The notes under the pieces: generated by a model
Database searches by the model: none
What the model was told of the DNA's origin: nothing
What the model saw: the letters and a program-made list of their open reading frames with translations, nothing else
Source: Isoetes taiwanensis
Lineage: Eukaryota; Streptophyta; Lycopodiopsida; Isoetales; Isoetaceae
NCBI GenBank assembly: GCA_021234155.1
Contig: JAJEKV010000139.1
Span: 1,546,386-1,610,385 of the forward strand
DNA length: 64,000 nt
Reading direction: 5' to 3'
Made by a program: the position numbers and the translations under genes
Part shown: one piece after another, positions 26,124-60,458 of the stretch
How positions within the stretch are numbered: the first letter of the stretch is position 1
Layout: each line of letters starts with the position of its first letter

Positions 26124-26392
26124 GTTTGATAGGAGTAGCTTGAGAATTTAAATTGATAAGCTTATGGATGATAATTTGGATGCTGAATTTGATCTTAAGT
26201 AGGAAAATTAAGAATGTAACATGCTGTCCTAGTTTCCAGGATAATGATAGAAACAGCCTTAAAATGATCTCATGGACTGATTTCTCTTGGAAGCTTATGT
26301 TAAATATATTTGGCTAAGTAGCGAAAATATAGGCAGGGTGAAATGGGATAACCTCAAGGAAATCCATGACACCTGCTAGTAGCTTAGGCTTT

Positions 26393-26438
26393 TACCCAAT
26401 TCCTGGCTAACTGTCCTTTGGTTCTACTGCAGGTAACA
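26393..26438 (+). promoter_or_regulatory. Third copy of the putative recursive splice site
   Basis: Same sequence as 20105-20150, with CTGCAG|GTAACA at 26432/26433. It is part of the large duplication and therefore not independent evidence of conservation. Confidence 0.4.
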
Positions 26439-27384
26439 GATTTCCTTGCTCTCTGTTTTGTATTTTCAAAAGGAGACAAAAGCTGATCCATGTAATTCCT
26501 GAAGATGGGGAGGAAATTTAGCATTCATGAACATATGTTTTCAGTATGCTTGGTAATATCTTCTTGCAGTAGATTAGCAGTTGTATGGATGTAAGTATGA
26601 CCAGAAATATATTTGCTTATGCAATTGACCTTTTAAAGAAGTGTCTAAACAATGGAAAATAATGAGAATTTTTCTAATTTATTTGCTGGGTATATGGTCT
26701 TTTATTGGAGATCTTGTGAAATTATGAATTTAAAAGTGTCTTAGGCATATGCTGTATAGTTTATTTACTGGATACATGGAAATAAATTCAGAGTATGCTT
26801 GATAATAAGTTGAATTGTAGCTTGAAGTGGTTGATCTATTTGCTGGAATTTTGCTTGTGAACAAGCTTAAATGTGTTTCGAGCCTATATCAGGGAATATA
26901 TGTCATAGATGCATGGATATGAAAACAGATTGGTTTAAAGGAATTTAGTGCATTTGCTGTTTGCATGCAAAACAGAAATATGGATTGGATTTTAGCTATG
27001 ATACATTTAGAGATGTAATGGAATTCTGGGGCAGAATAGTGATAATGTATTTTAAAGAGTCATTTGGTCAAGTGAAAGCAATAATATGAATACTTTCAGA
27101 ACATGATGATATTCCAATGGTCACTTATTAGGATAATGCTTAAGGTAAAGTTGGCTTAGCTCAACGTATCATATGATTGAAGTTAATTTGCTAAATAGAT
27201 AAACATATCTCCATTGTGGGTTATTGAATTGGAAAAAGACATAATTAAAATTGGATATAGGATAAAATGTTTAACCAGGACATTGACCTAGACATAAGGG
27301 TATCTGCTTATGTTTAGGACTGCAAATTGGGCTGTCTTTTTGACAGAAAGAAAGAGGTTCTAGTAGTCTAGAACTGATTTGGGG

Positions 27385-28100
27385 TTTTTTTTTTTTTTTT
27401 TTTACCATGGTGAGCTTTCTTTGGTATTCCATGTTCTTTTGCATGATAAAATTGGCAATATTCAGGTACTAACTATAAGTTCTTGTTACTTGTTTTAAAC
27501 ACATAAGCAAAGACAAAAAATAAAATGATAAAAGTCTCCAATGAACAGAATGATAAAAGTCCATCTCCAATTAACGACGGCATTATAGGACCAAAATAAT
27601 ACACGATGAAAAAGTACTTTAGACGTTTTAGTTTCCAGCTACTGCATTTAATGTTCCCAATAACTTTTCCATGTTATTAGTACTCTAAATACTACTGAAT
27701 GATATTCTAATTGAACTTTTATTAATCTTCTTTATTTTGCTGAGTAACTTCACTTTTAAAACGTTTTTTGTCATTACTGGTGCAGTCATTTCTTTTACGT
27801 TCTTTTTTCTTTGTTTATTATGCATGATGCAAACTTAGACTTGAATTGAATCCAATAGTACATATTGATAAAAAAGCATTTAAATATGTCAAAAAAGCAT
27901 TTTTAATGAACTACAAAATGACAAAAATTGAAGTAAAACTGCCACAACGAAGACTTCTATTTGGATATAAAATTTAGAGCTATGTTCTTATAAGATTGAC
28001 ATGTACATATGTCACAAAAAGAACTAAATGTTGACACAATTTTGTTATTACCTATAAAAGTCAGAATTATGTTATAAAAACAATATATGATTGTTATATC
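27385..28100. other. No gene seen; AT-rich
   Basis: Opens with a T tract (27385-27402) and continues as AT-rich sequence with stops in all frames. It separates the truncated tandem unit from the minus-strand LINE fragment. Confidence 0.5.
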
Positions 28101-28869
28101 TTAGTTTTTGCTAGATTTACCGTTAGCCCGGTATTCTTCCCCTTGCTGTTCTGCTATGTAACCCTGCAAAGCGTCTATGTATATCCCATATAGAGTTGGG
28201 GATAGCGGGCAACCCTGTTTTACGCCTGTGTCACAGTTTATTGGCTGTCCTTCTTGCTCTATCTTGGCATGTACCCTATGGTATAGTCTTGCAATCGATC
28301 CTACCATGTTTCTTGGAGCTTGCATGTCCATCAAACTTTGTAATAGCTTCTCCCTCGGGACTGTGTCGAATGCTTTCCTGAAATCTACAAAACAGCAGAT
28401 GATCTTTCTTCCCTGTGCCTTGTTCTGTTCTATTAATATCTGAAGGGTTACTAGATGGTCTGTGGTTGAGTGTTCCGGTCTGAATCCTGCTTGCCCTTGT
28501 GCTCTCATGTTTCCCTTTTCTGCCCATTTCTTTAATTTGTTTGTCCGGTGCCTTTCTAGAACCATTTTCACGAAAATGGAACTCACCATTATTGTTCTAT
28601 AGTTTCCTGGATCTTGCCTGCTTCCTGCCTTATGTAGAGGTATGACTCTATTGTACGTCCACCTGTCTGGAAGCTCTGTATGTATTATGCCATTGAAAAT
28701 GTCCATGACCTGTTTGCCAATTTCTGTTTTAGCACATTTCAATAATTCCACGGTCAGACCGTATAGATCCTGGGCTTTGTGGTTAGCCATCCTGTTTAGG
28801 GCTATCATTACCTCTTGCATGTTGAAGCATGGTTTATCCTATCCTGCAAAGATTGGTATTGGTACGGGG
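28101..28869 (-). pseudogene. LINE reverse transcriptase fragment, catalytic box deleted
   Basis: The frame from about 28820 reads MANHKAQDLYGLTVELLK (the KA-G-DG block), RTIMVSSIFVKMVLE, QAGFRPEHSTTDHLVTL, FVDFRKAFDTVPREKL (motif A) and GVKQGCPLSPTLYGIYIDAL (motif B). These are classical LINE RT blocks. After GEEY the sequence jumps to RANGKSSKN in this frame; at nucleotide level it resumes at a point matching GLTVNLAKTK of the copy at 37.8 kb. About 130 bp that would encode the YADD box (motif C) are therefore missing, and the enzyme cannot be active. Confidence 0.85.
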
Positions 28870-29591: not shown

Positions 29592-31334
29592 TGCAATACA
29601 TATTATTATGATCGCCTGCAGAGAATACACATCATGGTAATGAAGTTGAATCTGTTGCAAATAACTCAAACAAAGCTGGGAATGATTTGAATATGTTGCA
29701 TAAGATAACAAAGCTTGAAGATTGAAGAAAAATAGAGTGCTTGAAGCTTCATTGCCGCATTTAGGATGTCTTCATAATACAATGCCCTCATAATTCCAAA
29801 TCATGTAACATTCGAAATATGGATACAAAAGGACTTTCAAAGGACATCTCACCAAAATGGAGGGGCTGAACCTTCATTCTTGTACTCAAGGTACTCTACA
29901 TCTTTATAATGCACTTGGAGATTCGATGACACGTGCACAAAAGCAATGAGAATTTCCTTCATTTTGGTGGACTGCCATATCATCATAGGCAAAGCATTAC
30001 ATAGTGACACATTTTAGTGACACATTTGCTTCACAATTCAAGATCATGGTATGAGTTGAATACACCGCAAGAAAGTGCGAATGAGTTGAACATGATGCAT
30101 AAGATAACAATCGGATAAATAATAGTTTGTTGACTTATTTGCCAAGTTATCATATTTTTTAAAAAAGACAATCACCATATCTTTGCCCGTTCGGATAACA
30201 TGCAATGGACCCGTATGTGTTTCATGAGCTCTTCATTCTTTATTCAAAACCGCAGAACTTGACATGTTTAAAAAAGACAATCACCATCATATCTTTGCGG
30301 TTCGGATAACATGCAATGGACCTCAGTATGTGTTTCATGAGTTCTTCATTCTTTACTCAAAATGCAGAGCACTAACATGTACCTGCATAATCGAATAAAA
30401 TACATATTGCAATAATACCACTGGCATGAAAGTGATGATCTTTGAATCAACAGATGAAAATGAATCAAAGGCCTTTCGAGTGCTTCTCTGCTTTGTCTTG
30501 TCGTGATCTTGCTTTTAACAAAATGTTCATAACTTCACGGCTCCACACTCCAATTATTTGGAACTTCTTGAGATCTTCCAGATATTATAATCGAAGTCAG
30601 CATTAAGGGGTACGAATGAAGAGCAGAAGTTGTGGCATTCAAAAACATATGAATTACCTCTATCCTTTGACTGGCCAGCAAGATATGGATGTGATTTCTA
30701 AATATTGTACTGAAAAATGCTTGAATTTGTTGAGATATTTACTTGTATGCAGCCTAATAAGTCTTAAGTATCTGCTTCCACTTTCTACAACAAAAGCTTA
30801 AATCCATCTGCTTCTCGCCTTTGGTTCTATGCCCAAAGATCACACTTATCATCTCCTATTCTGTAATAGATGTAGCAAAGAACTGTAATATAATCACTTT
30901 ATGTGTTTCTACATATTCAGCTGTGCAAGGGTTTTTATGATCACACGTATCATCATCTGCATCTTTCTTGGTATTGTACAAAGCGATTACGAGGTCCCAG
31001 CACTGAACAATCTTGAATAATCGGGGCTGTTGAAGCTGCACCTGATGGAAGAGCCTACATTTGTTCAAAGTCGCAGTGATTGCTTATGGCCCCGACCTTA
31101 TAGTTGCATGGCTTATGGAACTAGATAAAAATGTTACTTCCCGCTTTTACTCTGAGCCCTAACGGTTCCAGAAGTTAACGTAACAATTGTGGGATGCTAA
31201 AAATGATGTGTGCAATGCATCCCCGCCATGGCCGAGATACCTAACATGCTCGATGGGCCATGTCCAACAGTATGTTTATCTTCCTTCGGGCTTTGTGGGT
31301 TTGATAGCATGAAGCATAGGCCGATCGGTTAGTC
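29592..31334. other. AT-rich insertion within the LINE; no gene
   Basis: No durable frame. It contains loosely repeated phrases around GTTGCATAAGATAACAA (about 29693 and 30098) and the exact-looking duplication at 30160-30380. It may be part of a larger non-autonomous element related to the flanking inverted-repeat unit. Confidence 0.4.
30160..30380. repeat. ~108-bp tandem duplication
   Basis: Two units begin AAAAAAGACAATCACCAT and contain TTCGGATAACATGCAATGGA and GTGTTTCATGAG, starting near 30162 and 30270. They differ by a few indels. Confidence 0.8.
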
Positions 31335-32535
31335 TGCACAAGATTAGTCTAGTATGGACCTTAAACAAAGTAATAAAAAAAATGGGACTATGGTAGGTGG
31401 CACTAGGATGGTGAGGCTAAAAAGCCATGCCCCTAGAGTTGCCCCTAGGAACCTAGACTTCCTAAGGCGGGGATTAAATCACGCTTTACAAAGTGTGCAT
31501 GTAAGGCAAAAAGTTTTGCCAACGGATGTGTGGTGAGTTGGTATATGCTTAATTATGCCAAAAATAAATGTGCATTTGGTCATGGGTTCAAACCTTGCCA
31601 ATGTATGTTTATCTTTGGGAGTTGGTTATTGGAGGTATACGATCATGATCCCGGCGTGGTAGAACTTAAAAGCTCTATGTGTCCTCCACTTTTGGCTTTT
31701 GGTAGTGGGATAAACCAGCTAGTCTGCAGTACAAGATTAGTCTAGTATGGACCTTAAACAAAGTAATAAAAACAATGGGACTATGGTAGGTGGCACTAGG
31801 ATGGTGAGGCTAAAAAGCCATGCCCCTAGAGTTGCCCCTAGGACCTAGACTTCCTAAGGCGGGGATTAAATCCACGCCACAAAGTGTGCATGTAAGGCAA
31901 AAGTTTTTGCCCAAATCGGATGTGTGGTGAGTTGGTATATGCCTAATAATGCCAAAATAAATGTGCATTTGGTCATGGGTTCAAACCTTGCCAATGTATG
32001 TTTATCTTTGGGAGTTGGTTATTGGGGGTATCATGATGATGATCCCCGTGCTAGAACTTAAAAGCCTCTATGTGTCCTCCACTTTGGGCTGTGGGGGTAG
32101 TGGGATAAACTAAAGTCCTGGTACAAGATTAGTCTAGTATGGACCTTAAACAAAGTAATAAAAACAATGGGACTATGGTAGGTGGCACTAGGATGGTGAG
32201 GCTAAAAAGCCATGCCCCTAGAGTTGCCCCCAGGACTCCAGACTTCCCTAAGGCTGGATTAAATCCACGCCTACAAAGTGTGCATGTAAGGCAAAAGTTT
32301 TGCCCAACGGATGTGTGGTGAGTTGGTATATGCCTAATAATGCCAAAATAAATGTGCATTTGGTCATGGGTTCAAACCTTGCCAATGTATGTTTATCTTT
32401 TGGAGTTGGTTATTGGGGGTATACGATGATGATCCCCGACGTGTTAGAACTTAAAAGCCTCTATGTGTCTTCCACTTTGGCTGCCGCAAGGTAGTGGGAT
32501 AAACTAGCTAGTTTGTACAAGATTAGTCTAGTATG
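31335..32535 (+). repeat. Tandem array of three ~395-bp units with tRNA-like pol III boxes
   Basis: Each unit begins AGTCTAGTATGGACCTTAAA (31349, 31739 and 32132). Each contains GGATGTGTGGTGAGTTGGTA, which fits an A box (TGGTGAGTTGG), and about 50 bp on GGTTCAAACC, which fits a B box. The array ends with GTCTAGTATGGACC at 32527-32540. The units are near-identical apart from short indels. It is best read as a tRNA-derived SINE or a satellite built from one. No coding capacity. Confidence 0.7.
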
Positions 32536-32545
32536 GACCCCGATG

Positions 32546-36464: not shown

Positions 36465-38604
36465 CATTCATTTCTTTTTGCTTCTTCCATGTCGAGAGGC
36501 TCTCTATCTTCTTGACCTTTTCAGTTTCTTGACATGTAAGCACGGCATATAAAATCCTTTGGATTTTTCTCATAGCGGTATGCATATCTTGCCGTAGTTA
36601 AGCCTATCATAAGATTATGTTGGTATTTGGAGACTTATGTATTCTTGCATGCATCACCGAACTGTTAAAGCCTTTGCATCACTCTATCCATGTCTTGTGC
36701 CGGTTTGTATCGTTCTTATCTGCTAAAACTCCAAGCACTCCTAGAAGGCCAGGGTTATAACACGCATCCCTCATCACTGCGCATGGTGGATCACGATCAC
36801 AAAACAAGCAATGGATGCGACCACCCGGCTTATGCATGGCGACGGACCTTTACATAAACATATGCATTAGGCTTGCATATGCACCGCGGGTTAAGATCTT
36901 GAAGATCAGATTCGAGGACGCCCAGTGGTTGCCGGAACCCCCTCCTTGAAAAACTTGGTATTTGCCTATCCCCATCAGCGATGCCATGACCTTCTTCCCC
37001 TTATCCATTACAATTCTGAATTATGCCTGATCTGGGTCGAGCGCTGCACTTTTTGCCGAAGCCGGAGCTCGAAGAATATAGAACTTGAAGACGGAGCTTC
37101 ACTCTTTGTCTTCTCCTTGTTCACGCGACAAATAGGTCTGAACATTTTCAACGGCATAATACATCTGGGCTTCCAGACATGTGGACGTACAATAGAGTCA
37201 TACCTCTACATAAGGCAGGAAGCAGGCAAGATCCATGGTGAGTTCCATTTTACGCAAAATGGTTTGGAAAACAGCGACAAACAAATTAAAGAAATGGGCA
37301 GAAAATGGAAACATGAGAGCACAAGGGCAAGCAGGATTCAGACCGGAACACTCAACCATAGACCATCTAGTAACCCGCGCCGGATATTAATAAAACGAGG
37401 GAGGCCTGAGGGGAAGAAAGATCATCTGGCTGTTTTGTAGATTTCGGAAAGCATTCGACCGGATCCAGGAGGAAGCTATTACAAAGGTTGATGGACATGC
37501 AAGCCCCAAGAAACATGGTAGGATCGATTGCAAGACTATACCATAGGGTATATGCCAAGATAGCAAGAAGGACTGACCAATAAAGCGTGACACCAAGTAA
37601 AAAATAGGGTTGCCCGCTATCCCCAACTCTATTTGGGATATACATAGACGCTTTGCGAGGGTTACATAGCGAACAAAACAAGGGGAAGAATACACCGTTA
37701 GGAGACACGAAGGTATCGATTATGCTATACGCTGATGATAAGTATGATGGCCACAAAAACAAGGGAATGCACAGATCGCTAAAAATTCTAGAACAATTAC
37801 GTGAAAAAACCGGGCTAACGGTAAATCTAGCAAAAAAAACTAAGATAGTCATATTCGGCATAAGAACAGGGCGCAGACCCTTCGGATATAGGGAAACGGA
37901 AATAGAGGAAATAGCGAAATCTGAGATATCTAGGGCGATGCACGTGGCGCGAGGGAAGTGGGCTAAGGTAGGTACCGGGTTCCAATCAGCTATAGGAAGT
38001 TATTTCAATATGAAGAATTTACGCATAAAAAGCGGGATAATTGACCCGGGACATCAAATGCTACTTATTCAAAGTCAAAGAGTAGCCACCCTACTCAATT
38101 ATATGGGGGCAGAAGCTTGGGGCCAGCCTAACACACAAAATGGGAAAAGCGAGGGAAGGAATCCTTAGGCAATGGCACGAGGGGAATTCAAAAGCAGGAC
38201 AAATCATGCCCGACAATCATGGTCCCCAACGGGGGGCAAAACCAATGGAGGTGAGAGCATGGGAGAGAACCATAAGGTACGATTAAGGACAATGCGAGGG
38301 GAGACCATCGAGAAATTGTCTAGTATTGCAATCACCGAGTCCACAAAGTCACACATTCCTGATAGGCGGATGGTTTAAAGATGTGGCAAAATGGACCGAG
38401 AGATGGGATTAAACTGGCGACCTAATAAGCGAAGGGCGATGGAATGAGGAGTGGGCGGAGACAAAGCCACAAGAGCATGGTGCAAAACACCGCAGGACCC
38501 AAGACAATCGGCTCATGGCGGTTTTTAACCAGAATCGGCCGGTGGGACATCGGATGTATCGGGATAACATCTTGGGGAAAAAGCCGACTCCTCGAGAGAT
38601 TCAT
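36465..38604 (+). mobile_element. Duplicated block, unit A: flank plus 5'-truncated LINE
   Basis: 36465-37139 is a non-LINE flank also present at 38605-39250. LINE homology begins at about 37140 with FNGIIH, the same truncation point as in unit B. RT blocks follow in shifting frames: DHLVTL-equivalent, KVSIMLYADDK (about 37713, motif C), TGLTVNLAKKTK (about 37808), then the C-terminal domain. The unit ends abruptly at about 38604, where unit B begins. Because flank and truncation point are shared, the pair is a tandem duplication after insertion and not two insertions. Confidence 0.65.
37140..38600 (+). pseudogene. LINE reverse transcriptase, unit A, frameshifted
   Basis: Same family as 28101-28869: nucleotide-level alignment is evident for long stretches. 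The sequence is broken by many short deletions, for example loss of the GGAAACTATAGAACAA-equivalent after 37231. The longest readable part (37653-38168) contains LYADDK, LKILEQLREKTGLTVNLAKK and a C-terminal region ending in YMGAEAWG, the LINE (Y)GAEVWG block. Not functional. Confidence 0.7.
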
Positions 38605-41275
38605 TTCTTTGCTTCTTCCATGTCGAAGGCTCTCCCTATCTTCTTGACCTTTTTCAGTTCTTGACATGTAAGCACGGCATATAAAATCCTTTGGATTTTC
38701 TCATAGCAGAATATGCATATCTTCTTGTAGTCGCCTATCCTTAAGATTATGTTGGTAGCTGGAAGACTTATGTATTCTTTGCATGCATCAGAGCCTGTTA
38801 AAAATTTGCGCATCCTCTATCCATGTCTTGGCACCGGTTGTATCGTTCTTATCTGCTAAAACTCAAGCACTCCTAGAAGACCGAGGTTATAACTTGCATC
38901 CCTCATCATTGCGCATGGTGGATACGATCACAAAACAAACAATGGATGCGACCCGCGGCTTATGCATGGCAATGACCTTTACATAAACATATGCATTAGA
39001 GCATATGCACCCGCGGGTTAAGATCTTGAGTCTGGATTCCGAGGTGGCACCGTGATTTACTGGAACCCATCCTTGAAGCTTCTTGGATCCCTATCCCCAT
39101 CGCGCGACGTGATGACCTTCTTCCCTATCCATTACAATTACGATTATACCGATTCGGGTCGTGAAGCTTGAAGCGTTTCCCGAAGAAGAATATAGAACTT
39201 GAAGGCCAGACTTCACTCTTTTGTCTTCTCCTTATTCTGGCAAATAGGTCACCGAGACATTTCAAACAGCATAATACATACGGGGCTTCCAGGACATGTG
39301 GGCGATACAATAGAGTCATACCTCTACATAAAGGCGGGAAGGCAAGATCCATGGTGAGTTCCATTTTAAAATGGTTTGGAAAGGCAACTGACCCGACAAA
39401 TTAAAGAAATGGGCGGAAAATGGAAACATGAGAGCACAAGGGCAAAACAGGATTGAACAGAACACTCAACCATAGACCATCTAGTAACCCTTCGGATATT
39501 AATAGAAATGAACAAGGCCGCGGGAAGAAAAAGATCATCTGCTGTTTTGTAGATTCGGAAAGCATTAAAACCACGATCCAGAGGAGAAGCTATTACAAAG
39601 GTTGATGGACATGCAAGCCCCAAGAAACATGGTAGGATGATTGCAAGACTATACCATAGGGTATATGCCAAGATAGAGCAAGAAGGGCGGTAATAAAACG
39701 TGACCACAGTAAAGCAGGGTTGCAGCTATCCCCAACTCTATTTGGGATATACATAGACGCTTTGCGAGGTTACATAGCGAGCGACAGGGGAAGAATACAC
39801 CCTACGTTAGGAACCTGAAGTGGAATTATGCTATCTGGCGATGATCTGAGTATGATGGCCACAAAAACAAGGGAATACGGTTGCTAAAAATTCTAGAACA
39901 ATTACGTGAAAAAGAAAAAGGCTACAACGGTAAATCTAGCAAAAACTAAGATAGTCATATTAGGGCATAAGAACAGGGCATGAACCCTTGGATATAGGGA
40001 AACGAAAATAGAGGAAATAAATTGAAATCTACGATATCTCCCAAATGCGATGCACATGCCTTTTGCAGTGGGCTAAGGTGCGGATACCCGGTTCCAATCA
40101 GCTATAGGAAGTTATTTCAATATGAAGAATTTCTGCAACAAAAATGTAATAATTGATAACATCAAATGCTGCTTATTCAAATGGTAGCCCACTTTCTCAA
40201 TTATATGGAAGGCTGAAGCTTGGGGGCCGAGGCCTAACACACAAAAATGGGAAAAGCAGGAAGGAATCCTTAGAGCAATGGCAAAGACGCATTGGAATTC
40301 AAAGAAATCACGGACAAATCACGCCAACGACAATCATGGTCCCGCGAAAGCGGGGCAAAACCAATGGAGGTGAGAGCATGGGAGAACCATAAGGTACCCG
40401 ATTAAGGACAATGCAGGACCATCGGGGAAATTGTCTAGTATTGCAATCACCGAAGTCCACAAAAGTCACACGATACGATAGGCGTGGATGGTTTAAAGAT
40501 GTGGCAAAATGGACCCGAGAGATGGGATTAAACCCGACGACCTAATAAACGAAGAGGCGATGGAATGAGAGGTGGGCGGAGACAAAGCCACAAGAGCATG
40601 GCTGCAAAAACACACGAGGACCCAAGACAATAACGGCTCATGGCAGTTTTTAACCGTCGGCCGGTGGGACATCGGATGTATCGGGATAACATCTGGGAAA
40701 AGCCAAGAATATCTTGGCTAGGTTCGGGATGGGAAGTCACGATCGAAATCGAAAAAGACGGTGGAGGAATAGACAAGGAGGGCCGGATATGCGAGAATCT
40801 GTGACAATGGGAGAGTAGAGGATGAGAACCACATGAATAACGATTGCCCGATATCACGGGAACATCGAGACAAAAGTCTGAAATATAAGATGGAGGCAAC
40901 GGTGTATATCCCTCGATGACAATAATTTAATCGCTTCGAGATTTTGGCGGGCGATCCGAGGGAATGATGATCCGAACCGAGAGAAGTACGCGGAAAAGAG
41001 GGTTTGTAATATGAACCGCATAAAAGCGCTCCATAAAACCCCATACAAATTATTCCGTTAAAAGCTGATTGATAACGACGCATTACCGCGTACCACGGCG
41101 AAGCAAAGCGTGGGTCTTGGTAATAATAGAAAAAAGTCACCTTGAAAAAGCTACATCATAACAATGATGTACTGGTAAAGCGCCCTTTTAGGGGCTTCGC
41201 CCATGCTACACAAGTCCGAACTGGCGCACAAGGGACGTTAATGTCTATTCTATTCTATTCTATTCTATTCTAATT
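38605..41275 (+). mobile_element. Duplicated block, unit B: flank plus LINE with 3' end and (TTCTA)n tail
   Basis: Repeats unit A and continues further 3'. Near 40790-40850 it has a cysteine-histidine motif (C-x2-C..EDENHMN..C) like the C-terminal zinc knuckle of LINEs. Near 41184 there is a small hairpin GCCCTTTTAGGGGC, and the tail consists of about five TTCTA units ending at about 41272. The tail defines the true 3' end of this LINE family. More indels than in unit A. Confidence 0.65.
39250..41140 (+). pseudogene. LINE reverse transcriptase, unit B, frameshifted
   Basis: Collinear with unit A at nucleotide level. No frame stays open for more than about 80 codons. The YADD region is degraded (GCTATCTGGCGATGATCTGA near 39830). 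Not functional. Confidence 0.65.
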
Positions 41276-47319: not shown

Positions 47320-48943
47320 TGTGATTTGTCGGGGGAATATATCGCCATAAATAATTATATTCACGGATCCGTCACCATACAAGTCTATCTTCATAGCCTT
47401 GTATACCATAGATTGTGGCACTAGGGGGGCATGGCTAAGTTATTCTCATAGCTTAGCCAACCATAGGTTAAGCCATTATCCGTGGCCTTAACCTGTTGGG
47501 CACGCCACCGCAGGGACTCACCCGATTGGTGCCACGTGGCATCCTAGGTGGACCCTAACTTATATAGGCATAAACCCTAACCCTAGACCTCTTTTCCAGC
47601 CCTAGCACCCAGAGACTCACCTACTTGTTGAAACCCGGTTTGAACATGGATTCGTGTGGCATAGGTCTGGTGCGGCCCATTGGGTAGACCCGTTCTTGGA
47701 GGAGGAGCAGCTTGTGAGTCAGAAGACTATGGAGGCGCCCGGATCTGGAGGAGCATCGAGGGCGGCGGTATGTAGGATAGTAGTTGTGATAGCTCATGCC
47801 AATTAGCAATCCGGATGTGCTAGTATTTTGTATCTAGAGTAGAGCCATCCTAGAACCCATATTCAACATCTTGAACCCTAATCAAGGAACCCTAACTATT
47901 AGTTAGTTGTGCGATTAGGTTAAGATGTTCTTCTTATGATTATTCTCATGATGATTATGTGATGATGGTTGATCATGTTTGCTCCTCTTGTATTGGGAAG
48001 GGGGTGAGACCTAGAGCCATATGTAGTATGCTCTAGAGTGAATCCCTTAGTTCCTATTAGTTAGCGACTTTGTGCATAGGAGCCCACCGGGCTATTGAGG
48101 CTATGTTATGACTCGGCACCCGGATACTTGAGGGCTAGAGGGAAAGTGGAGGAGGATCCTGCCGGTGGGGGCTTCGAGGGGGGATCCCATAGTGGGCTAG
48201 GCTTATGGTGGGTCACCCGTGTGGGCGAGCATGGGTCAGGCACCTCTGGGGCAATGGTGTTGCCACCCTCTGGGGCTGCAAGTGTTGGCTTGGCTCGTTT
48301 TGGGGGTTGATTCGGTCAGTGCAGATGCGTGTGTCACCCGCGATTCTCTAGCGCCACGGCACCTCTAGACCACAGGAGGGGGAGATGCAACCCTTCACGC
48401 CTCATCGGACCAGGGGGGAGATGCAACTGGGGTAGTCCCAGATGGGTGATGCCATGGGATTGCGTATCCAGGAAGGCTAGAGTCTGTCGAGCCTGATCTA
48501 GCCCATGCGCAAAGTATGCACGGGGAGGGGGCGGATGGAGTGGTCAACCCCTAGCCATTGTTCTATGCCAGCCTACGCCATTGCCATGTCTCGATTACTG
48601 CTCTATCTTGAGGCCTGGCCGGTCGGTCATCCTCCTTGCAGTGCAGGCCGGGTAGGAGCTCTCTGTTTTATAGTTTGTGATTATCATCTATGCATTGGGT
48701 TGTAATGCGATGCACTACCCTCAGAGGTAGTATTTATATATGTTTTATGCTAGTTGACGTGTTATCGCTTCATTATAGAGCCCATAGGGAAAGGCGGCAT
48801 AAGACACCTTACGTGTTCCCTTCCGCACTAGAGTCACCTCGAGTCGCGGGGTAGGCGAAAAAGGGCCCATCACGGTTCTTGGCCCGGGATGGGGGATTTC
48901 ACAGGGTGTCTGGCCGGCGTATGTTTAGCGAGGGGCGTCCACA
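47320..48943 (+). repeat. 5' LTR
   Basis: Begins TGTGATTTGTCGGGGGAATA and ends GCGTCCACA. It aligns along its whole length with 58823-60458. A TATA box, CTTATATAGG, lies at about 47558-47567, upstream of a conserved CATAAACCCTAACCCTAG stretch, which contains telomere-like CCCTAAA units. Confidence 0.8.
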
Positions 48944-48944
48944 A

Positions 48945-48960
48945 TGGTATCGAGCAATGT
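48945..48960 (+). promoter_or_regulatory. Primer-binding site (initiator Met-tRNA type)
   Basis: TGGTATCGAGCAATG directly after the LTR end matches the plant retrotransposon primer-binding site TGGTATCAGAGC with one base missing. Minus-strand DNA synthesis would be primed here. Confidence 0.75.
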
Positions 48961-49420
48961 TCTTGGTTGACCAAGAACTAGCAATGACCATAACCATGAA
49001 GTAGTCCTAACAGGCCTATAGGGGTGTGAAATAAACATTTCCACCATCGAACCGCGAAAATGGGGAAAAAAAATTTTTCTCTAGGTAGTGGGTCGGACTT
49101 AGGTTAAGTGTTAGACGAGGGGTTTGAGTGAGTCAAGCGCACCTTCTAGTAAATTGGGAGTGAAAATCATGCATCTGCATCAAATTTCACCTAAAATGGG
49201 TCAAGAATCATGCCAATCGGAGACCAATTGAAAAATGGCGCCAAATTCATAGATTGCACTTGAACCATTAGAAAAATTCGAAATTCAAGTATAATATCAA
49301 TTAATATGGATTTAACATATATATTTAATAATTAAATAAGCACTAAATATCTTGTAATTAATAAGGGGGCTAATAAATAGGGGTAATTATGGTAGGAGAA
49401 TATTCTCGGGGACCCTCCTC

Positions 49421-49428
49421 TTTAAATA
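49421..49428 (+). promoter_or_regulatory. TATA-like box before the H3-like gene
   Basis: TTTAAATA about 95 bp upstream of the ATG at 49521. It is followed by a pyrimidine-rich leader (CACCTCATTTTTCCCTCC...), as in plant core promoters. It suggests that the H3-like unit arrived with, or evolved, its own promoter. Confidence 0.4.
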
Positions 49429-49520
49429 TCTCGACACCTCATTTTTCCCTCCAAACTTTCCTCTACCTTCTCTCTCTTGACCAGCCTATCCCCCCACTGT
49501 TTTTCTAGGCCCCGTTAAAT

Positions 49521-50600
49521 ATGGCTCGAACCAAACAAACCTATAGGAAGATCGCCCTAGGGCCTACCCTCCATGGCGCAGAGCAGCGGGCGCCATGTGA
49601 AGAAGATACGAGCACCCTACGGCCCAAGAAGGGGGAAGAGGCTTCCCCTACCAGCGGCGGCGGCCGGGACGGGTCAGATCCGATGCCGAGAAGCGACCCC
49701 TGGGTCGGCGGGGACACCAAAGAACAGAGCGAATCTAGCCGCCGAGGCCCACTGAGACCCGGAGCAGGAGGGAGGCGAGGTCCAAGAGCAAGTGGAGGCA
49801 GGCGGGGCCTTGACCCCCAAAGAAGAAAAAGGAGAAGGTCGAGTGGCTCAAGAGAGGGCCGCAAGGAGGAAAGAGGGAACAGGAGGAGGAGGCGGGCCCG
49901 GGAAAAGCTGAGGAGGAGGGCGAAAGAGGAAAGAAAGCAGCCCGGTCCCAGCCCAGAGGCAGAGCCGTGATAGAGCCTCACGTGAGGAGGGAGGCGGTGG
50001 AAGGAGGAGGAGGGAGGGGAAGAGATGGCGGGGGGGGCAAGGTAGGACCCGAGACCACCTTACCGATTAATGGCCCAAGCCACCTAAGGTGTGCAAAAGG
50101 CGAGAAGCCGAGAGCGGGCCTTAGCCTTGGGAAGGGCCGGAGTCTCACAGCACTTACTCAAAACATACCAAGAATACCTTAGATGGGTGGACAAAGGTAT
50201 AATGATTGGTACTGCCGTGAGAGCGCCCGGCCGACTGCAAGTGGAGGCCCGGGAACCAGCCAAACCCCGCCACCGGCCCGAAGCCAGAAGAAGACCCACC
50301 ATGGGCTAACTTCGGTACACTCCGTGTCTTCAGGAGATTAGACACTTTCACCGGTGCACTAATCTCCTTATTAGGAAGGCACCCTTTGGCGACTTTCATG
50401 CGGGGAGATGTCTGCGGCGGTTAGTCACCGAAAAGCTTCTGAGTGGCGTCGCTCACAACTTCGGAGTCTTGCAAGTAGCGTGGTACGAAACTCACCCGGT
50501 TGTTTGAGGAAAGGGAACCTCTAGCGGCGATCCACGCGAAGAGGGTGACCTTTGATGCTTAAGGATATATACTTGGCGTCGCATCCCATAAGGAATACCC
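49521..50600 (+). pseudogene. Histone H3/CENH3-like gene inside the retrotransposon, degenerate
   Basis: The ATG at 49521 starts MARTKQTYRK; canonical H3 is MARTKQTARK. An Arg/Gly/Glu-rich tail follows to a stop at 49968. From 50313, in the same frame, RYTPCLQEIRHFHRCTNLLI and RKAPF correspond to the H3 alpha-N/alpha-1 region; HF...TNLL and APF are CENH3-like. Further on VLQVAWY may be alpha-2. In the next frame LTRLFEEREPLAAIHAKRVT (50491-50550) matches loop 2 and the start of alpha-3 (LFEDTNLCAIHAKRVT in H3). After a second shift MLKDIYLAS (50555) matches the MPKDIQLAR end. Spacing from alpha-1 to alpha-3 fits the histone fold within a few residues. The tail-to-core distance is long, so introns or a CENH3-type long tail are possible; TGTCTTCAG|GAGATT at 50333 could be an acceptor. 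In-frame stops and two frame changes make it non-functional as read. Confidence 0.7.
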
Positions 50601-53600
50601 TTGAGGATGCATTCTTGTTTAAAAGTAATGTAATTATTAAAGTCTCCTATAAATATAAAATTTTGTTGTAAAAAGCTGACCTCAATTCTTGTATGAAATT
50701 ATGTCTAAATAGCTCAAATTTCACTTTAAGTTTGACCATTAAAATTGTATTGTTGAAGGAAAAATTAATTAGTTAGAAACCCTAGCTTAATTAGTTCAAA
50801 AAAAAAACTGCCAATTAGAAGGCTTAAACCGGTCGAAAATGGGGTCTAGCCCTCGGCCTCGGGGGCTACTTCTCGCGACGCCACCCGATTCGACATTTTG
50901 ATACTAGAAATGTCCAATTAAAGTAAGAAAAGTTGCTAGTTAGGGTAGAATCGTGCTGAAAGTCATGTTAGGATGTTTAATTTTCCTAAAAACCCTTGTA
51001 GAAAGTAAATTGACCCGAAACCGGGTCGCGTCGCGAAAAACCACCCTGCGTCCTCGACGGAGAGCCAATTCTCATGGCGCCACCGATTTAAACTCAATCT
51101 TGCCTAGATTGACCAATTTTGACCCAACAAACTCTCATGTAGTGTTTCTTGCTTTGATTTGTCTAGAATTGCCTTGCGTCATGGTAGCTCATTTGGACAC
51201 CGAGGGCCATAGATTTGGAGTCTTCCCCATCAAGAACCTTTGTGCCTGCAGCAGGGGCACCCCTAGTCTATAAAAAGGGCCCTCATTTGTCATTTTCTCC
51301 CCATCAGAACTGCTCCTAGCTCCTGTGGCGATTTTCTAACCCCTTGCTCAAATCCAGCAGCCATTTTTCATAGCCATCTCTGCTCAATGGCGCCATCAAG
51401 CTTTGTTAGATGGTACAATGACTCTAATCACATCCGTGAACTCCTATTGAGCAAGCCTTTCATGTCTTGATCATCTCTTTGATCTTCATGCCACCTTAAC
51501 CGAGAACCCCTATTACAGCCCAGGCATCATGTGTCAATATGATCGACAAATTACGCCCTCGGAGTTAGCTTGCCACCTAGGGGAGGGAAATGGGTTTCTC
51601 TAGATTCTCTTGCTCAAGCCATAGGTGGGGGATCCAGGGGCAAGAACAAGCTCTGGGATAGAACCAGAAACATGCCAGACTACATGACACATAAGCATCA
51701 TAGGCATAGGTATCTTTCGAATAGCGGCCTTAGCATTGTTCATGCGGTATAGAGGCCGATTAACCAACCGGGGAGCCATCAATCCAACCCTTGGATTTGG
51801 CACCACTTTCGACACCCGAACGCTTACGGATAAGCATTGGGGAGATCGAGACCTCAGCATCACGAACACTACGGCTCCACATAGCGGGAACACCTATGTT
51901 GCGGTCAGTGCGACTATGAAGAGGAGGAGGAAGAGAACAAGTTGGGAGATGAGGGAGAGGAGAATGGAGGCTATATATGGCTTCGACAACAAGAAGTTCT
52001 AAAGCGAGACTTGAGCCACGGTAAATCGGCCCTTACCCGGTGATTATCGGCCCGAGGAGTACATATTCGCTAATCAGGCATCCCTCAACCTTCCCTGTCG
52101 GGAGGAGGGCCTCGGGGATCGGCGAGCTTCTAAGCCTCATAGCACAAGAGCAAAGGCGGTGAACTTCGCCGACTACTCCTACCAAGAGATCCCACGGGGA
52201 GGTAGCGGCGACACTCCTATCTGCAGGAAAAACCATGTCCAGGACATCGGTATTATCAACGGTTAGGTACATGTTTTGCAGCCGGAAACCATCATCATCA
52301 GAAAGAAGAAGAATTTCAAGAAATCCAAAGCGGGTTGTACAAGCGGGGAAGAGGCCCAAGCTCCGCCGACCGGTCGCTCGAAGTATCTCTGCGAAGCATC
52401 TAGCGGCATCAACTTGGAGAAGCGCAAAACAACTATGGGAGGGATCCGCGAAGATCGATTGCATTAGATGTGTTCGTGGCGGCACAAAAGGAAGAGTCAC
52501 GGGGAGGCGGGGGCAGGCCGCGGGGGGCAAATCACTTCGGTACTACCTTCGGCCCTTAGTCAAGGTCGGATGATAGTCTTCCACAAGGAATTCAGCCCAA
52601 AGGGGTGAAGAATCCGGGTGGCTCCTCATAGCACTCGGGGTTTGGACATCATGCGGGATAGATTTTGGAATGGACCATGTGATACTCTTCAAAGATCGGT
52701 AGCCCTTCATGCCCTCGACTTATGAGGGGCCACCTCGGATGCGCACTTGTCGGTGAGTGGCGGCAAGCGCACGGGAACTCCCAAAGACCACAAGTGCTTA
52801 AAGAGCATTGGAGGGGATCGATGGCTAGAATCCCTCTTGAAACATGGGCAAGGGCACGGGATTCAAGAAAATCAAGAACTTCTTCAAGCGGCGCCATTGA
52901 TTGGAAGAATTGTTTGCTAACTTAATTAAAATTACATTGTAACTCCTTTTAAGTATTATCATAAATGTCCATTAAATGTATTTCTATATACTAATTAATG
53001 TATTACAATGATTTTGACTTGTAAAAGAAATTTTCATATGATTTCTTTTGTACCTAACAACAATTTAATTGTAAGCAAAATGATCATTGCCTAACCTAAT
53101 AACATCTATTAATGATCAATCCTTGCGACCAAGGAACTCAAGTCACGGGATCTCAAGATCGACCTACCGACCCACATAATTGGGTACCAAAGGAATCTGT
53201 TTGGCGGGGAACAAAGAAGATGTCGGCGGGATATGTCACGAGGAGGCGGTCAAGCGCAAGGTTGGTGCGGATGAGGAATCAGATGCAACACCTCATCAAC
53301 CAGGGCGACACCTCTCATGAATGCAGGGAAGATGGTCACCCACCTCCACCTTGTTTTCGGGGTGGTGGCGAAAGTTCCTCGGCCCGGGGAAGGGAGGGCA
53401 ACGAGGGAATGTCGGGGGATAGGAGAAGGAAGAGGAGAACCGGGGAGTCCATCATCATCTAGCTCCGCTCATGGGGGCTCTCTTCGGTGAGGACAGCTCT
53501 ATTCAGATGAAGTGACTCACAGCACACCTAAAGGCAAGAAAAAGGGCAAGAAAGGCAGGATGATTACGAGAAAAAAAGGTGGATAGTGCTATGAGCAATG
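50601..53600 (+). other. Long leader between H3-like gene and gag, mostly unassigned
   Basis: 50601-50830 is AT-rich and 3'UTR-like. At 51269-51278 a strong TATA box, TATAAAAAGG, precedes a CATTTTCTCCCCATCAG start-site-like stretch. From 51550 to 53460 several Arg/Gly-rich frames open on both strands (for example 53112-53462, which contains MRNQMQHLINQGDTSHECRE). None is recognised. This may be a second cargo gene, an untranslated leader, or frameshifted 5' gag. Confidence 0.35.
51269..51278 (+). promoter_or_regulatory. Internal TATA box
   Basis: AGTCTATAAAAAGGGCCC is a good plant TATA context, ~2.3 kb downstream of the 5' LTR and followed by a pyrimidine-rich leader. It could drive a second internal transcript. 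Confidence 0.4.
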
Positions 53601-54374
53601 TATGGAAGACAAAGAAAGGCTGGGCCAGTTCTCGGGGAAAGACGGATCCCGTCGCATGGAAGGCTGAAGCATGGCTTGATGAAATGGAAGAATTTGGTAA
53701 CTCTTACGAATGAAAGACAAGGATATAGGGAAAGTTACTCTGACTAACCTCATTGGACGGCAAGGATGCAGTGGAAGGGATATGCTAAGTCTAACAAAAA
53801 GAGGAACAATTGTAGATTTAAGACTTTTAGCAAGGCTTTAAAGTAAGCACTATGTACCAGGTCTCATACTAGTAGGCCAGGATCCGGCTGTTTTACGAGG
53901 TTGAATCGAGGTACCTTATCGGTGGCTAAGTATACGAAGAATTTATGAGGCTTTCGGGCTGAATGTTCACGGAGTCTCGAGAGGAGGCAAGCGTGGATAC
54001 TTACATTGAGGGTTGAACAAAGAATATCAAGAGGCTTGTTAGAGCAATCAACACGGTCGGTCCTTGCCAAGAAGATAAAGCTATAAGTTTGGAGGAGGCA
54101 CCGGCAACTCCGGCCCGGAGAAGCGATCAACCTTGAGGTAAGTTCAGAAATGATGCTCGGGGGACAATATCCGGGGTAAGCAATGGCGGCTACACCATCG
54201 AAGTCGAAGGGCCCGAGGTAAGGGTAAAGCAAAGCTTTTGGGGACCGTAAGCCCGCGACGAATGCATCGGGGGGCGCCTCTTAAGCGTCTCCTAGACAGT
54301 CTGCCGAAGGAAAAGAGACAGGAATGCATTGAGAAGAAGTTATGCTTGGTGCTTCCGGCCAACACGGACACATG
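53601..54374 (+). pseudogene. Gag, frameshifted
   Basis: DPVAWKAEAWLDEMEEF (53646-53696) matches the DPVKAEAWL-EIE start of plant Ty3/gypsy Gag. KDIGKVTLTNLIGRQG (near 53719) corresponds to the KV-LAT--L-G-A-WW block, here without its Trp pair. Near 54342, GASGQHGHMI is the remnant of the CCHC zinc knuckle (C-x2-C-GQ-GHI-C). Several frame changes. Confidence 0.6.
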
Positions 54375-55193
54375 ATTGTCCATTCGTCATCTGCAATCGG
54401 CTTTGGCGAGAACTCTTGGGCCCAGGGACTCCCCAGCGAGCGGACGAGGGGCGATGACCAACCAGGGAGGGCCCGCGACTTCATAGATGGTGAGTGTCAC
54501 ATATGTGCAAACATTGAGTCAGATGAGATAGAGAATCAGTCAACTGTCATCGCGGCTGATGGGATCATAGATAGTAATCCTTATGTAGTCCTCATAGATA
54601 CAGGTAGCTCTCATAATTTTGCATCTCCTAGATTGGCTGCTCTAATGAAGAATAAGGTATTGAAGTCTAAGCCAAGGCCCATTTGCTATGGCCAATGCGC
54701 CATTCGGCACACTAAGGGGAGGAGGATCACCTTTGACATAGACCTTAGTGGGGCTAAGTGGCCGATGGGAGCAGAAGTCATGGACATTGGAAGATATGAT
54801 TTGATAGTGGGGATGGAATTTTTGAAGCCAGCCAAAGCCATGATTGATTCGCCCAGGAATGAAGTCACCATGGCGGCACCCAGGGCATTCGCTGACAAGT
54901 TGATAGTGAAAGGTAAGAAGCTACATTCTCCTATGCAGTGTATTTCTTTGAAGCAGCTAAGGAAGAGTATAGAAAGGAATAAAGTGGATTACATCTTGAG
55001 GTTGGAATCAGTTGGGCCAGGCAAGCAGGAGGGAAGTGACCCAAAGGGGAATCACTTGCCCAGGCAGATAGCAAGGCTTATTTCAGAGTTCAAGGATGTA
55101 TTCCGGATGAAATCCAGGCCACCTTATAGGGGTGTAGAATGTGAGATCACATTGGCTCAGGATCTGAAGCCTACCAAGAAGGGCGCCATATAG
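54375..55193 (+). pseudogene. Aspartic protease and start of pol
   Basis: One frame open to 55193 contains YVVLIDTGSSHNFASP with the retropepsin DTG at 54597-54605, then RRITFDIDLSGAKWPMGAEV and DLIVGMEFLK (the second conserved protease block, GMDWL-like). The end of the frame, [20 protein letters not shown], is the usual linker to RT (LPP-R--DH-I-L). It is the best preserved segment of the element. A stop at 55191-55193 breaks it before the RT. Confidence 0.8.
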
Positions 55194-55790
55194 AATGAGC
55201 ATTCCAGAATTGACTGAGCTCAAGAAACAGCTGCAGGAATTGCTCGAGCTTGGATTTATAAGAGCAAGTGTGTCTCCTTTCGGAGCACCTATACTCTTTG
55301 TCAAGAAGAAAGATGGGAGCTTAAGAATGTGCATAGACTATCGCCAGCTCAACAAGCAGACGATAAAGAATAAGTATGCATTACCAAGGCGGATGACCCT
55401 AATGGACCGATTACAAGGAGCAAAGGTATTCTCTAAGATTGATTTGAGATCGGGGATACCATCGATAAGAATAAAAGAAGAGGACATCCATAAGGCGCTT
55501 TGGGAACGGCAGTGCGGTCATTTTGAGTTCCACGGATAATGCCCTTTGGATTGTCGAGCGCTCCAATAACGTTTATCGCCTCATGAACGATATCTTGAGA
55601 GACTTCTTGGATGAGTTTGTTATTGTCTTCTTCGACGACATCCTAATCTACACAAGTCCCTTGAAGAGCATTGTCGGCATCTCGGGGAAAGTGTTGGAGA
55701 AATTGAGGCGTCATCGGTTGTATGGGAAGCTCTCTAAGTGCCACTTTGCAACAGGCCGGTGGAGTACTTGGGGCATGTAGTAACATCAGG
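55180..55790 (+). pseudogene. Reverse transcriptase, frameshifted
   Basis: Frame 55195-55539: [57 protein letters not shown] and [10 protein letters not shown] (motif A). Frame 55523-55780: NDILRDFLDEFVIVFFDDIL, with the FDD catalytic box at about 55631, then HRLYGKLSKCHF. These are standard Ty3/gypsy RT blocks. The QY-F-VMPFGL block between motifs A and C is damaged by the frame change near 55530. Confidence 0.85.
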
Positions 55791-56430
55791 GAATCTCCAC
55801 GAGATCCATCTAAGATTGAGGCAATAGTTGATTGGCCAGCTCAAAGGAATGTGGCAGTAAGAAGCTTTCGGGTTGGCATGGATACTACTGAAAGTTCGTG
55901 AAGGACTTTGCTAAGTGGGCGTCCCCTACATGGACCCTCACTAAGGCCAAGAAGATTAAGGATTGGGCTAGCCATTGGTTAGAAAGCCCAAGCTTCTTTT
56001 GAGAAGCTTAAAGAGGCCTTAACAACAAAAGACCACCCGGTGCTTGTTCTCCCCGGATCCAGTAAGGATAAGTTGATAGCAACAGATGCAAGCAAGATAG
56101 CAACAGGCAGTCTTGATGCAAGAAGGAAGGGTAATTAAGCCTCGACTCAAAAGAAGATGAACGGCCTTGAACAGCTACCCAACCCATGATCGGGGAGCTC
56201 CTAGCCATTGTCGAGGGCATTGAGGATATGGAGGCATTATTTACGGGAAGGAAGTTTAGGTTAGATCCCATCATCACGAGCCTTCAAGTATCTTTTCACC
56301 CAGCCACTCCTCAACTTAAGGCAAAGGAGGTGGATGGAATTCCTTGAGGAGTCTGATTTTGATATTATATATAAGCTGGTAAGCAATGTTGTAGCGGATG
56401 CCCTCTCTAGGAGGCCATTTCGCACAAGGG
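55791..56430 (+). pseudogene. RNase H, frameshifted
   Basis: LVLPGSSKDKLIATDAS (about 56041-56092) contains the first catalytic Asp of the gypsy RNase H. Near 56185 ELLAIVEGIEDMEALFTGRK matches [31 protein letters not shown] and SRRPF (56346-56420) form the domain end. Frames change at least twice. Confidence 0.75.
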
Positions 56431-57560: not shown

Positions 57561-57910
57561 TTGCCCCTAGGTGGAGCTGGGCCGTTCAAGATTTTTAGAG
57601 AGTGGGCTCTCAAGCCTACAAGTTGGATCTTCCAGCCCATCTTAAGGTCCACAAGGTCTTCCACGTAAGTTTATTAAAAAGGCACAATCCTAACCCTGAG
57701 GAGGTTTTGGATACTCCAACCTTGTTGGAAATGACGGAGGAGCAAGTAGAAATAGTGCCCGAAGTTACTTCTTGATAAGTCATTCAAGAAGACTAGGAGG
57801 TCTCGGTTCCTCCAATATTTGGTTAAGTGGAAGCACTTGCAGCGTGGAAGATCACGACATGGGTATTGAAGCAAGATTTGGAGAAGCAATACCCGTGAGT
57901 TTATGAAGGA
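57561..57910 (+). pseudogene. Post-integrase tail with chromodomain remnant
   Basis: Near 57615 AYKLDLPAHLKVHKVFHVSL followed by LKRHNP is the conserved GPY/F-region end of gypsy integrases. After about 30 residues, KTRRSRFLQYLVKWKHL (about 57789-57838) matches the chromodomain core (R---YLVKWKG). Chromodomains direct integration to methylated-histone chromatin. The C-terminal aromatic cage part is degraded. Confidence 0.6.
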
Positions 57911-58822: not shown

Positions 58823-60458
58823 TGTGACGGTCCAGGGGAATATACGCCATAAATACGTATATTCCTGGATCCGTCACCATACAAGTCTATCTTCATAGCC
58901 TTGTATACCATAGATTGTGGCACTAGGGGGCATGGCTAAGTTATTCTCATAGCTTAGCCAACCATAGGTTAAGCCATTATCCACGTGGCCTTAACCTATT
59001 GGGGGCACCACCACGGGACTCACCCGTTGGTGCCGCGTGGCATCCTAGGTGGACCTAACTTATATAGGCATAAACCCTAACCTAGACCTCTTTTCCAGCC
59101 CTAGCACCCCGAGACTCACCTACTTGTTCGAAACCCCGTTTCGAACATCGTTCGTTGTGGCATAGGCTGGTGCAGCAGCCCCAGCAGGGTAGACCCGTTC
59201 TTGGAGGAGGAACAGCAGCTTGTGAGTCGAAGACTATGGAGGCGCCCGGATCTGGAGGGAGAGCATCAGGAGCAGGTATGTAGGATAGTAGTTGTGATAG
59301 CTCATCTGGAATTAGCAATCCAGATGTGCTAGTATTTTGTATCTAGAGTAGAGCCATCCTAGAACCCATATTCAACATCTTGAACCCTAATCAAGGAACC
59401 CTAACTATTAGTTAGTTGTATGATTAGGTTAAGATGTTCTTCTTATGATTATTCTCATGATGATTATGTGATGATGGTTGATCATGTTTGCTCCTCTTGT
59501 ATTGGGAAGGGGGGTAGAGACCTAGAGCCATATGTAGTATGCTCCTAGAGTAGATCCCTTAGTTCCTATTAGTTGCGGCCTGTGCATAGGAGCCCACCAG
59601 GCTATTGAGGCTATGTTATGACTCAGCACCAGATAACGGGGCTAGAGGGAAAGTGGAGGGAGGATCCCTGCCGAGTGGGGGCTTCGGGGGATCCCATAGT
59701 GGGCTAGGCTTATGGTCGGTCACTTCGTGTGGGCCGAGCATGGGTCCGACACCTCCTGGGGCAATGGTGTTGCCCTGCCTCTCGGGAGCTGCAAGTGTTG
59801 GCTTGGCTCTCGTTTTGGGGGTTCACTGGCACGAATCGTGTGTCACCCGCGATTCTCTAGCCGCCTACGGCACCTCTAGACCACGGGAAGGGAGATGCAA
59901 CCCTTCCCGCCTCATCGGACCAGGGGAGATGCAACACAGGTAGTCCCGATGGGTGATGCCATGGGATTGCGTGATCCCGAAGGCTAGAGTCCCGTCGAGC
60001 CCCGATCTAGCCCATCCGCAAAGTATGCAGGAGAGGGGGGCGGATGGAGTGGTCAACCCTAGCCATTGTTCTATGCCAGCCCTCGCCATTGCCATGTCTC
60101 GGTCTGCTCTATCTTGAGGCCTAGCCCGGTCCAGGTCATCCTCCTTACGAACCGGGCGGGGTAGGAGCTCTCATGTTTTATGGTTTGTGATTATCATCTA
60201 TGCATTGGGTTATGTCGCGATGCACTACCCTCCGGTAGTATTTATATATGTTTTATGCTAGTTACGGCGTGTTATCGCTTCGGCCGTTATAGGAGCCCAT
60301 AGGGGAAGGGCGCAAAGACACCGCCGTGTTCCCTTCCCGCACTAGAGTCACCTCGGAGTCTTGGGGGTAGGCGAAGGCCCATGCGGTTGCTTGAGCGGAT
60401 GGGGATTTCTGCCAAAATTAATGCGGCGGGCCGATGTTTAGCGGGAGCGTCATAAACA
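58823..60458 (+). repeat. 3' LTR
   Basis: Begins TGTGACGGTCCAGGGGAATA and parallels the 5' LTR to about 60458. The TATA box is at about 59058-59067. The end (GCGTCATAAACA) is less clear than in the 5' copy (GCGTCCACA). Differences between the two LTRs are mainly 1-10 bp indels. Confidence 0.8.

Follow-up and report, generated by a model that had tools for sequence, protein, structure and literature searches.

The closest published counterpart that we found to the gene described here comes from fungi, in which hAT DNA transposons carry a histone H3–like gene, H3L in Pyrenophora tritici-repentis (PMC3538342) and an H3-like gene in Pseudocercospora fijiensis and its relatives (PMC6710886). Our subject is a Ty3/gypsy long terminal repeat (LTR) retrotransposon of the quillwort Isoetes taiwanensis, located in a 64,000-nucleotide stretch of contig JAJEKV010000139.1 (positions 1,546,386 to 1,610,385; hereafter the window), whose first open reading frame (ORF), ORF1, encodes a protein with a histone H3 fold. 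In both systems a mobile element carries and multiplies an H3-like gene, and the P. tritici-repentis transposon shares with the quillwort element a histone tail with insertions and an additional ORF whose function is unknown (PMC3538342). The fungal elements are reported as 26 very similar copies in one case and as hundreds of copies inactivated by repeat-induced point mutation in the other, with possible drift or inactivation as the interpretation given (PMC3538342, PMC6710886). The quillwort element, in contrast, is an LTR retrotransposon rather than a DNA transposon, resides in a plant, forms two diverged families, is under purifying selection, and has an N-terminal part of 270–310 aa.

Ty3/gypsy elements with extra domains have also been described. 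The giant elements of Phalaenopsis contain an AlkB demethylase (PMC9289625), which resembles the quillwort case in that a host-like domain has become fixed in an LTR lineage, plausibly against host control, but the domain is other than a histone. A screen of 121 angiosperm genomes yielded 15 unusual domains, and those named in the accessible part of that report (PMD, G-patch, AIR1, DUF1409, YgdH, L26, B3, ArgoL2, and 2-ODD) include no histone (PMC9289625). Plant chromoviruses (Tekay, CRM, Galadriel, and Tcn1-like) share with the quillwort element the LTRs, a tRNA-Met primer-binding site (PBS), gag, the protease–reverse transcriptase (RT)–RNase H–integrase order, and a chromodomain; the available portions of their descriptions differ in presenting gag and pol, in some cases with extra ORFs, and no histone gene (PMC2864245, PMC3350952). 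The word "histone" is absent from the main text, as available, of the genome papers of I. taiwanensis (PMC8566536) and Isoetes sinensis. Among the open-access papers (PubMed Central) listed by our searches, none tells of an LTR retrotransposon with a histone gene in its title or the start of its abstract. To our knowledge, no retrotransposon was previously known to encode part of a nucleosome. Selfish elements with a histone of their own are found among viruses, as with the H4 of bracoviruses and the histone doublets of Marseilleviridae, but these are large DNA viruses and not retroelements.

A selected H3-family gene of the element lineage

The H3-like stretch of the window lies in an element of ∼13.1 kb bounded by an LTR pair, and it is one copy of a standard gene in a chromodomain Ty3/gypsy lineage with the layout LTR–PBS–ORF1 (H3-family histone)–ORF2–gag–pol with chromodomain–LTR. 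The genome assembly (1,658,258,908 bases in 1110 contigs) was searched with the DNA of the fold (window positions 50,300–50,620), and all 40 matches scored among 720 first-look candidates carry the H3 fold stretch, the window copy and 39 other places at 82–86% identity. Twenty of these 39 were fetched with ∼10 kb each, as the next best by score after the window copy and not as a random sample, and are called family A here. All 20 have the H3 unit, in colinear order with the leader; the 5′ LTR falls within the fetched stretch in 18 (not in L010 and L013), and colinearity continues into gag in 19 (not in L020). The original prediction had placed an H3-like gene between the PBS and gag of a chromodomain-bearing Ty3/gypsy element and had proposed that other copies be examined for the unit at that place, and there it is in every fetched member. 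Because the place is always the same, the chance landing in one copy that had been offered as an alternative is ruled out, and an insertion confined to one copy is rejected.

ORF1 is a single open frame, starting with MARTKQTYRK and running through the fold, in 5 of the 20 fetched copies (named in Table 1). The two that were scanned match profile PF00125 over the complete H3 fold (E = 4.9e-29 in L012 and 1e-28 in L021), and ORF1 of L012 matches H3 in the PDB at 8e-30. Downstream of ORF1 follow ORF2 and gag, the latter matching capsid and, weakly, zinc-knuckle profiles, and then protease, RT, RNase H, and the zinc-binding domain of integrase, each shown in one or another copy. When the window copy is pooled with relatives L021, L026, and L016, the domains Retrotrans_gag, RVP_2, RVT_1, RT_RNaseH, and Integrase_H2C2 give the Ty3 order of gag, protease, RT, RNase H, and integrase; no match to the integrase core was seen, and no search aimed at it was made. 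A chromodomain (PF00385) stands at the C terminus of integrase, with E = 1e-10 in relative L020 and as a partial match (9e-4) in the window copy. The LTR pair, tRNA PBS, polypurine tract, and target duplication of a Ty3/gypsy chromovirus are all found. Perfect 5-base target duplications flank L012, L016, and L021 (three of three tested, by eye; none is clear for the window copy), and the Kimura two-parameter (K2P) distances between the LTRs of these open copies are 0.014, 0.023, and 0.029. Copies with an open ORF1 thus did transpose.

ORF1 is under purifying selection and is constrained as tightly as gag. Nei–Gojobori counts over all pairs give a ratio of nonsynonymous to synonymous change (dN/dS) of 0.084 in family A (10 pairs of the five open copies; tail 0.086, fold 0.049), with 344 synonymous and 109 nonsynonymous differences, and of 0.128 in family B, described below (N-terminal part 0.147, fold 0.033). 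The comparison genes, at three copies each, have values of 0.120 (gag) and 0.082 (part of ORF2). When the window and 19 other fetched copies are compared with L012 without the condition of an open frame, so that decayed copies are included, the signal is weaker but present: summed over these copies, codon positions 1, 2, and 3 show 319, 282, and 527 differences in the tail and 69, 65, and 87 in the fold. Between L012 and L021 the ORF1 stretch has a K2P distance of 0.021 with 3 indels, and the spacer behind ORF1 has 0.194 with 39 indels. The original prediction had also considered a recent retrocopy or gene fragment, which is contradicted by the dN/dS of 0.084 together with the ORF1–ORF2–gag layout in two diverged families; neither an absence of selection nor an absence of the unit from other family members, as a retrocopy or passenger would have it, was observed. 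The dN/dS of ORF1 and its parity with gag likewise lead us to reject an unselected passenger. That the element encodes a selected H3-family protein is, in our judgment, nearly certain.

The second family emerged from a search with a plant H3.3 sequence, in which 150 of 9031 first-look candidates were scored. Fifteen are canonical H3 genes (97–99%). Over most of the fold, the other 135 are 72–87% identical; 45 lie within stop-free open frames of at least 400 aa, and 8 have a stop inside the match. Six of the 135, picked for long frames or high identity and not at random, were fetched, and two were shown to be elements. ORF1 of this family B is open in five of the six (409–419 aa; it is interrupted in L030) and joins ∼310 aa of novel sequence to a complete H3 fold, with PF00125 E values from 8e-41 to 2.6e-41 in the three scanned, the latter in L032. 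L033, which was followed on both sides, has two LTRs that are at least 1.25 kb long and 94.5% identical, a PBS directly behind the LTR, ORF1, ORF2, a broken gag and protease (by eye), and the start of RT. In L032, a PBS, ORF1, and an ORF2 interrupted by one stop are followed by gag and protease (Pfam), and LTR-like sequence lies on the 5′ side. Short parts of the LTRs of L033 and L032 align with the window element at 70–76%, and the RT of L033 does so at 72% over 536 positions. The ORF2 proteins of the two families are also alike (21% over 437 positions, 3e-13 in a BLASTP comparison of just these two). The N-terminal part of ORF1 differs between the families, with the start of the tail replaced in family B (MA.TKSAPDP and similar), and the ORF1–ORF2–gag layout is common to both. 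A single acquisition of H3 before families A and B parted is the simplest reading; given the long branch of family A, two separate captures into related elements may have occurred instead.

Further observations concern family B. An extra open frame of 151 aa with no Pfam match lies between ORF2 and gag (L036, 2673–3125, minus strand), and a similar open frame is present in L040 (1643–2137). A scan of IMG/VR with the family B ORF1 gave one relative among 26 stretches, the 4-kb contig L041, which is 38% identical in the fold only.

The H3-like stretch of the window copy

The window copy of the gene is broken. The four stretches named in the original prediction are all present, although spread over more than one frame: MARTKQTYRK begins at 49,521, EIRHFHRCTNLLIRKAPF occupies 50,334–50,387, LFEEREPLAAIHAKRVT occupies 50,500–50,550, and MLKDIYLAS occupies 50,555–50,581. 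Their spacing, which had been described as close to that of a real histone, is so for the fold but not for the N-terminal tail, which at ∼260 codons is much longer than in H3 or CENH3, the centromeric H3. Relatives with an open frame show that the long tail and the fold form one protein. The proposed search with H3 profiles fails on the window copy itself, as none of four single pieces of its ORF1 matches Pfam, the pieces being too short, and succeeds on the intact relatives. In the PDB, the best match of the first piece is H3 (E = 0.01), with one nonhistone (E = 0.04) among the 60 of 168 matches listed, and the best match of the second is also H3 (E = 0.28), with histones in all 52 rows. A frameshift-tolerant alignment of positions 50,201–50,650 scores 107 with H3.1, 110 with Arabidopsis CENH3, and 115 with rice CENH3, and the best of 300 dinucleotide shuffles reach 45, 48, and 52, respectively. 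Among 566 tiles of the window on both strands, those outside 49,276–50,850 score at most 40 for H3.1 and at most 45 for Arabidopsis CENH3; for rice CENH3 the six best tiles are all inside that interval, and the remaining tiles score at most 49. These shuffle and tile scores reject a chance resemblance to H3.

Within ∼1 kb, the window ORF1 departs from that of L012 by 94 substitutions and 88 indels (K2P 0.0995). Differences are uneven along the element (compared over 47,320–56,010), with K2P distances of 0.064 in ORF2, 0.063 in gag, 0.041 in the LTR, 0.031 in the spacer, and 0.016 in the leader, and of only 0.019 in the protease–RT region, although it is coding. The difference rates are 0.184 at CG, 0.170 at CHG, 0.054 at CHH, and 0.069 at A/T. 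About one indel per substitution and a threefold CG/CHG excess are unlike the usual neutral decay, and plain ageing of this copy is doubtful. For the frameshifts, residual error of long reads in methylated repeats has to be taken seriously, as does a mosaic formed by recombination; each of these, like deamination, would fit in part. Because assembly error or recombination may be involved, the frameshifts are not used here as evidence of age or loss, and because error, deamination, or a mosaic may have contributed, LTR distances, such as the K2P of 0.071 or 0.056 (depending on alignment settings) between the two LTRs of the window copy, are upper bounds.

Origin of the fold

The original prediction saw plant CENH3 in the letters HF, TNLL, and APF. 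The resemblance is real: family A shares the HF, TNLL, APF, and LM residues with plant CENH3. The broken window copy also gives slightly higher scores with the two CENH3 references than with H3.1 (115 and 110 versus 107). The intact copies, however, outweigh this resemblance. Loop 1 has the H3 length in both families, not the lengthened form of CENH3; residues 63–64 are RK in both, as in H3, whereas residue 63 is Pro in Arabidopsis and rice CENH3; and the open copies do not have the C-terminal Trp. The L012 fold shares 59% identity with a host gene of the H3.3 type (L035) and 46, 51, and 48% with the Arabidopsis, rice, and maize CENH3 sequences used as references, and two family B copies are 84 and 87% identical to host H3 and 57–69% to CENH3. 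In a tree, the branch of family A is long (0.81), and its placement relative to H3 and CENH3 is not firm. The sum of this evidence points to H3, and not CENH3, as the probable origin of the fold. A captured CENH3 that directs the element to centromeres is rejected for now, and we regard it as quite improbable.

Proposed role of the element histone

Plants use chromatin marks on histone H3 to silence transposons, and a retrotransposon making its own selected H3 would reverse that contest. The presence of such a gene suggests that the element manipulates host chromatin. In two copies of each family, all nine residues taken for the H3–H3′ bundle and all eight taken for the ASF1 face equal those of host H3, which fits a protein that still binds H4 and is recognized by H3 chaperones; of the 16 residues taken as DNA contacts, 15 are kept in family B and 11 in family A. 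The N-terminal part differs between the families yet is selected in both, and from this follows a model in which the fold attaches the protein and the N-terminal part serves the element. The H3 fold would pair with host H4, host chaperones would load the ORF1 protein, and the protein would then sit in or on nucleosomes and tie its N-terminal part to chromatin. As the working end, the N-terminal part might tether the preintegration complex or Gag to particular chromatin, or it might keep the element's own chromatin from silencing. We consider the odds slightly in favor of ORF1 being such a chromatin anchor, and for the explanation as a whole, a standard and selected H3-family gene of the lineage that acts in chromatin anchoring, we estimate a probability of about 0.58.

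Several observations weigh against this explanation. ORF1 is not open in 15 of the 20 fetched family A copies, and the dN/dS values come from open copies only, in pairs that share ancestry and so are not independent. Family A differs from host H3 at 5 of the 16 DNA-contact residues and is without the RYRPGT stretch. Searches of Pfam and the PDB found no known fold in the N-terminal part of family B or in ORF2, for which L021 gave no Pfam match at 0.1 and family B gave nothing meaningful in either database. It is also doubtful that the element itself reads methylated Lys9, as its chromodomain, judged by eye, looks like group II, without an aromatic cage.

A bolder proposal, which we hold only tentatively, is that the lineage builds its own nucleosome, with the ORF1 histone replacing host H3 on incoming or integrated element DNA or at target sites. 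Such a nucleosome would control both landing site and silencing, and the element would be the first retrotransposon known to encode part of a nucleosome. A decoy that titrates H3 chaperones or H3-tail enzymes (those of Lys9 methylation, and readers) and so blunts silencing without lasting deposition seems unlikely. It would explain why residues 1–10 of family A (MARTKQTYRK) are nearly a copy of H3, with the surroundings of Lys4 and Lys9 kept, and why the chaperone-face residues are fully kept in the four rows compared; in family B, however, the tail is replaced and the fold is better kept (dN/dS of 0.033 versus 0.147), which speaks for use of the fold and not the tail. Less probable still is a particle protein that would work alongside Gag to pack nucleic acid within the virus-like particle. 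In its favor, the tail is highly charged and of low complexity, and ORF1 precedes gag and is similarly conserved; against it, the H3–H3′ and chaperone faces, fully kept in the four rows compared, would be needless for simple compaction, and ORF2 sits between ORF1 and gag. Least probable of all, in our view, is a piece of a host H3 or CENH3 gene that was caught by one copy and is carried without function. The broken window copy and the many closed copies of ORF1 would suit such a passenger, as would the fungal hAT precedents, interpreted by their authors in the available text as drifting or inactivated (PMC3538342, PMC6710886). Against it stand the dN/dS values of the two families, the occupation of the same slot in all fetched copies, and constraint as tight as that on gag, and the frameshifts of the window copy are possibly assembly error.

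The element histones form a natural experiment on which replacements of the H3 tail are permissible, and in genome annotation they would inflate counts of host histone genes.

Other features of the window

The features of the element are collected in Table 1. The PBS reads TGGTATCAGAGC in 14 of 21 aligned rows (the window and 20 family A copies), has one A fewer in six, and lies in a missing region in one; we take this word to be of the initiator tRNA-Met type. A TATA-like box, TTTAAATAT, is kept in all 21 rows. With the CT-rich leader that follows, it hints at a putative internal promoter and at expression of ORF1 apart from the LTR promoter; the words of the box were not found upstream of ORF1 in the two family B copies searched. 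A nested second element between the H3 unit and gag was considered and rejected, as the region is ORF2, which is open in L021. Rfam at gathering cutoffs gave no matches.

Table 1. Features of the H3-carrying element in window coordinates
Feature	Positions	Strand	Remarks
5′ LTR	47320–48943	+	Starts TGTG, ends CACA; ends judged by eye
PBS, TGGTATCGAGC	48945–48955	+	Alignment of 21 rows
TATA-like box, TTTAAATAT	49421–49429	+	∼100 bases upstream of ORF1, then CT-rich leader
ORF1, H3-like gene, frame-broken in window copy	49521–50604	+	Open, 361–364 aa, in L012, L016, L021, L024, and L027
Histone-fold part of ORF1	50310–50604	+	PDB matches, frameshift-tolerant alignment
ORF2, ∼500-aa protein, broken in window copy, open in L021	51387–52900	+	
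gag, broken in window copy; limits approximate	53110–54480	+	Retrotrans_gag and Ty3_capsid in L021
Open frame with aspartic protease (RVP_2), start of pol	54342–55193	+	E = 6e-9
RT pieces (RVT_1)	55195–55780	+	E = 1.4e-7 and 3.8e-7
Integrase C-terminal SH3-like part and partial chromodomain	57599–57866	+	SH3_Tf2-1, 2.9e-10; Chromo, 9e-4
Polypurine tract, AAGGGGGGGAGAA	58810–58822	+	Sequence reading
3′ LTR	58823–60455	+	End uncertain by a few bases

The window contains other repeats as well. At 19,006–27,392, direct terminal repeats of 2.1 kb (96.3% identical) enclose a 534-aa ORF (21,215–22,819) and a 690-aa RT-like ORF (23,013–25,085; RVT_1, 2e-5), in what we presume is perhaps a Penelope- or DIRS-like element, and a diverged relative of the 534-aa ORF, recognized by eye, lies at 13,353–15,038. 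Two tandem units of 2.1 kb, 82.6% identical, occupy 36,466–40,701, and a stretch related to these units at 28,101–28,838 on the opposite strand resembles, by eye, a LINE-type RT. A 331-aa open frame at 5442–6437 on the minus strand resembles, again by eye, hAT-type transposase-derived proteins, and a tandem array of ∼390-base units that are 91–92% identical extends over 31,330–32,539.
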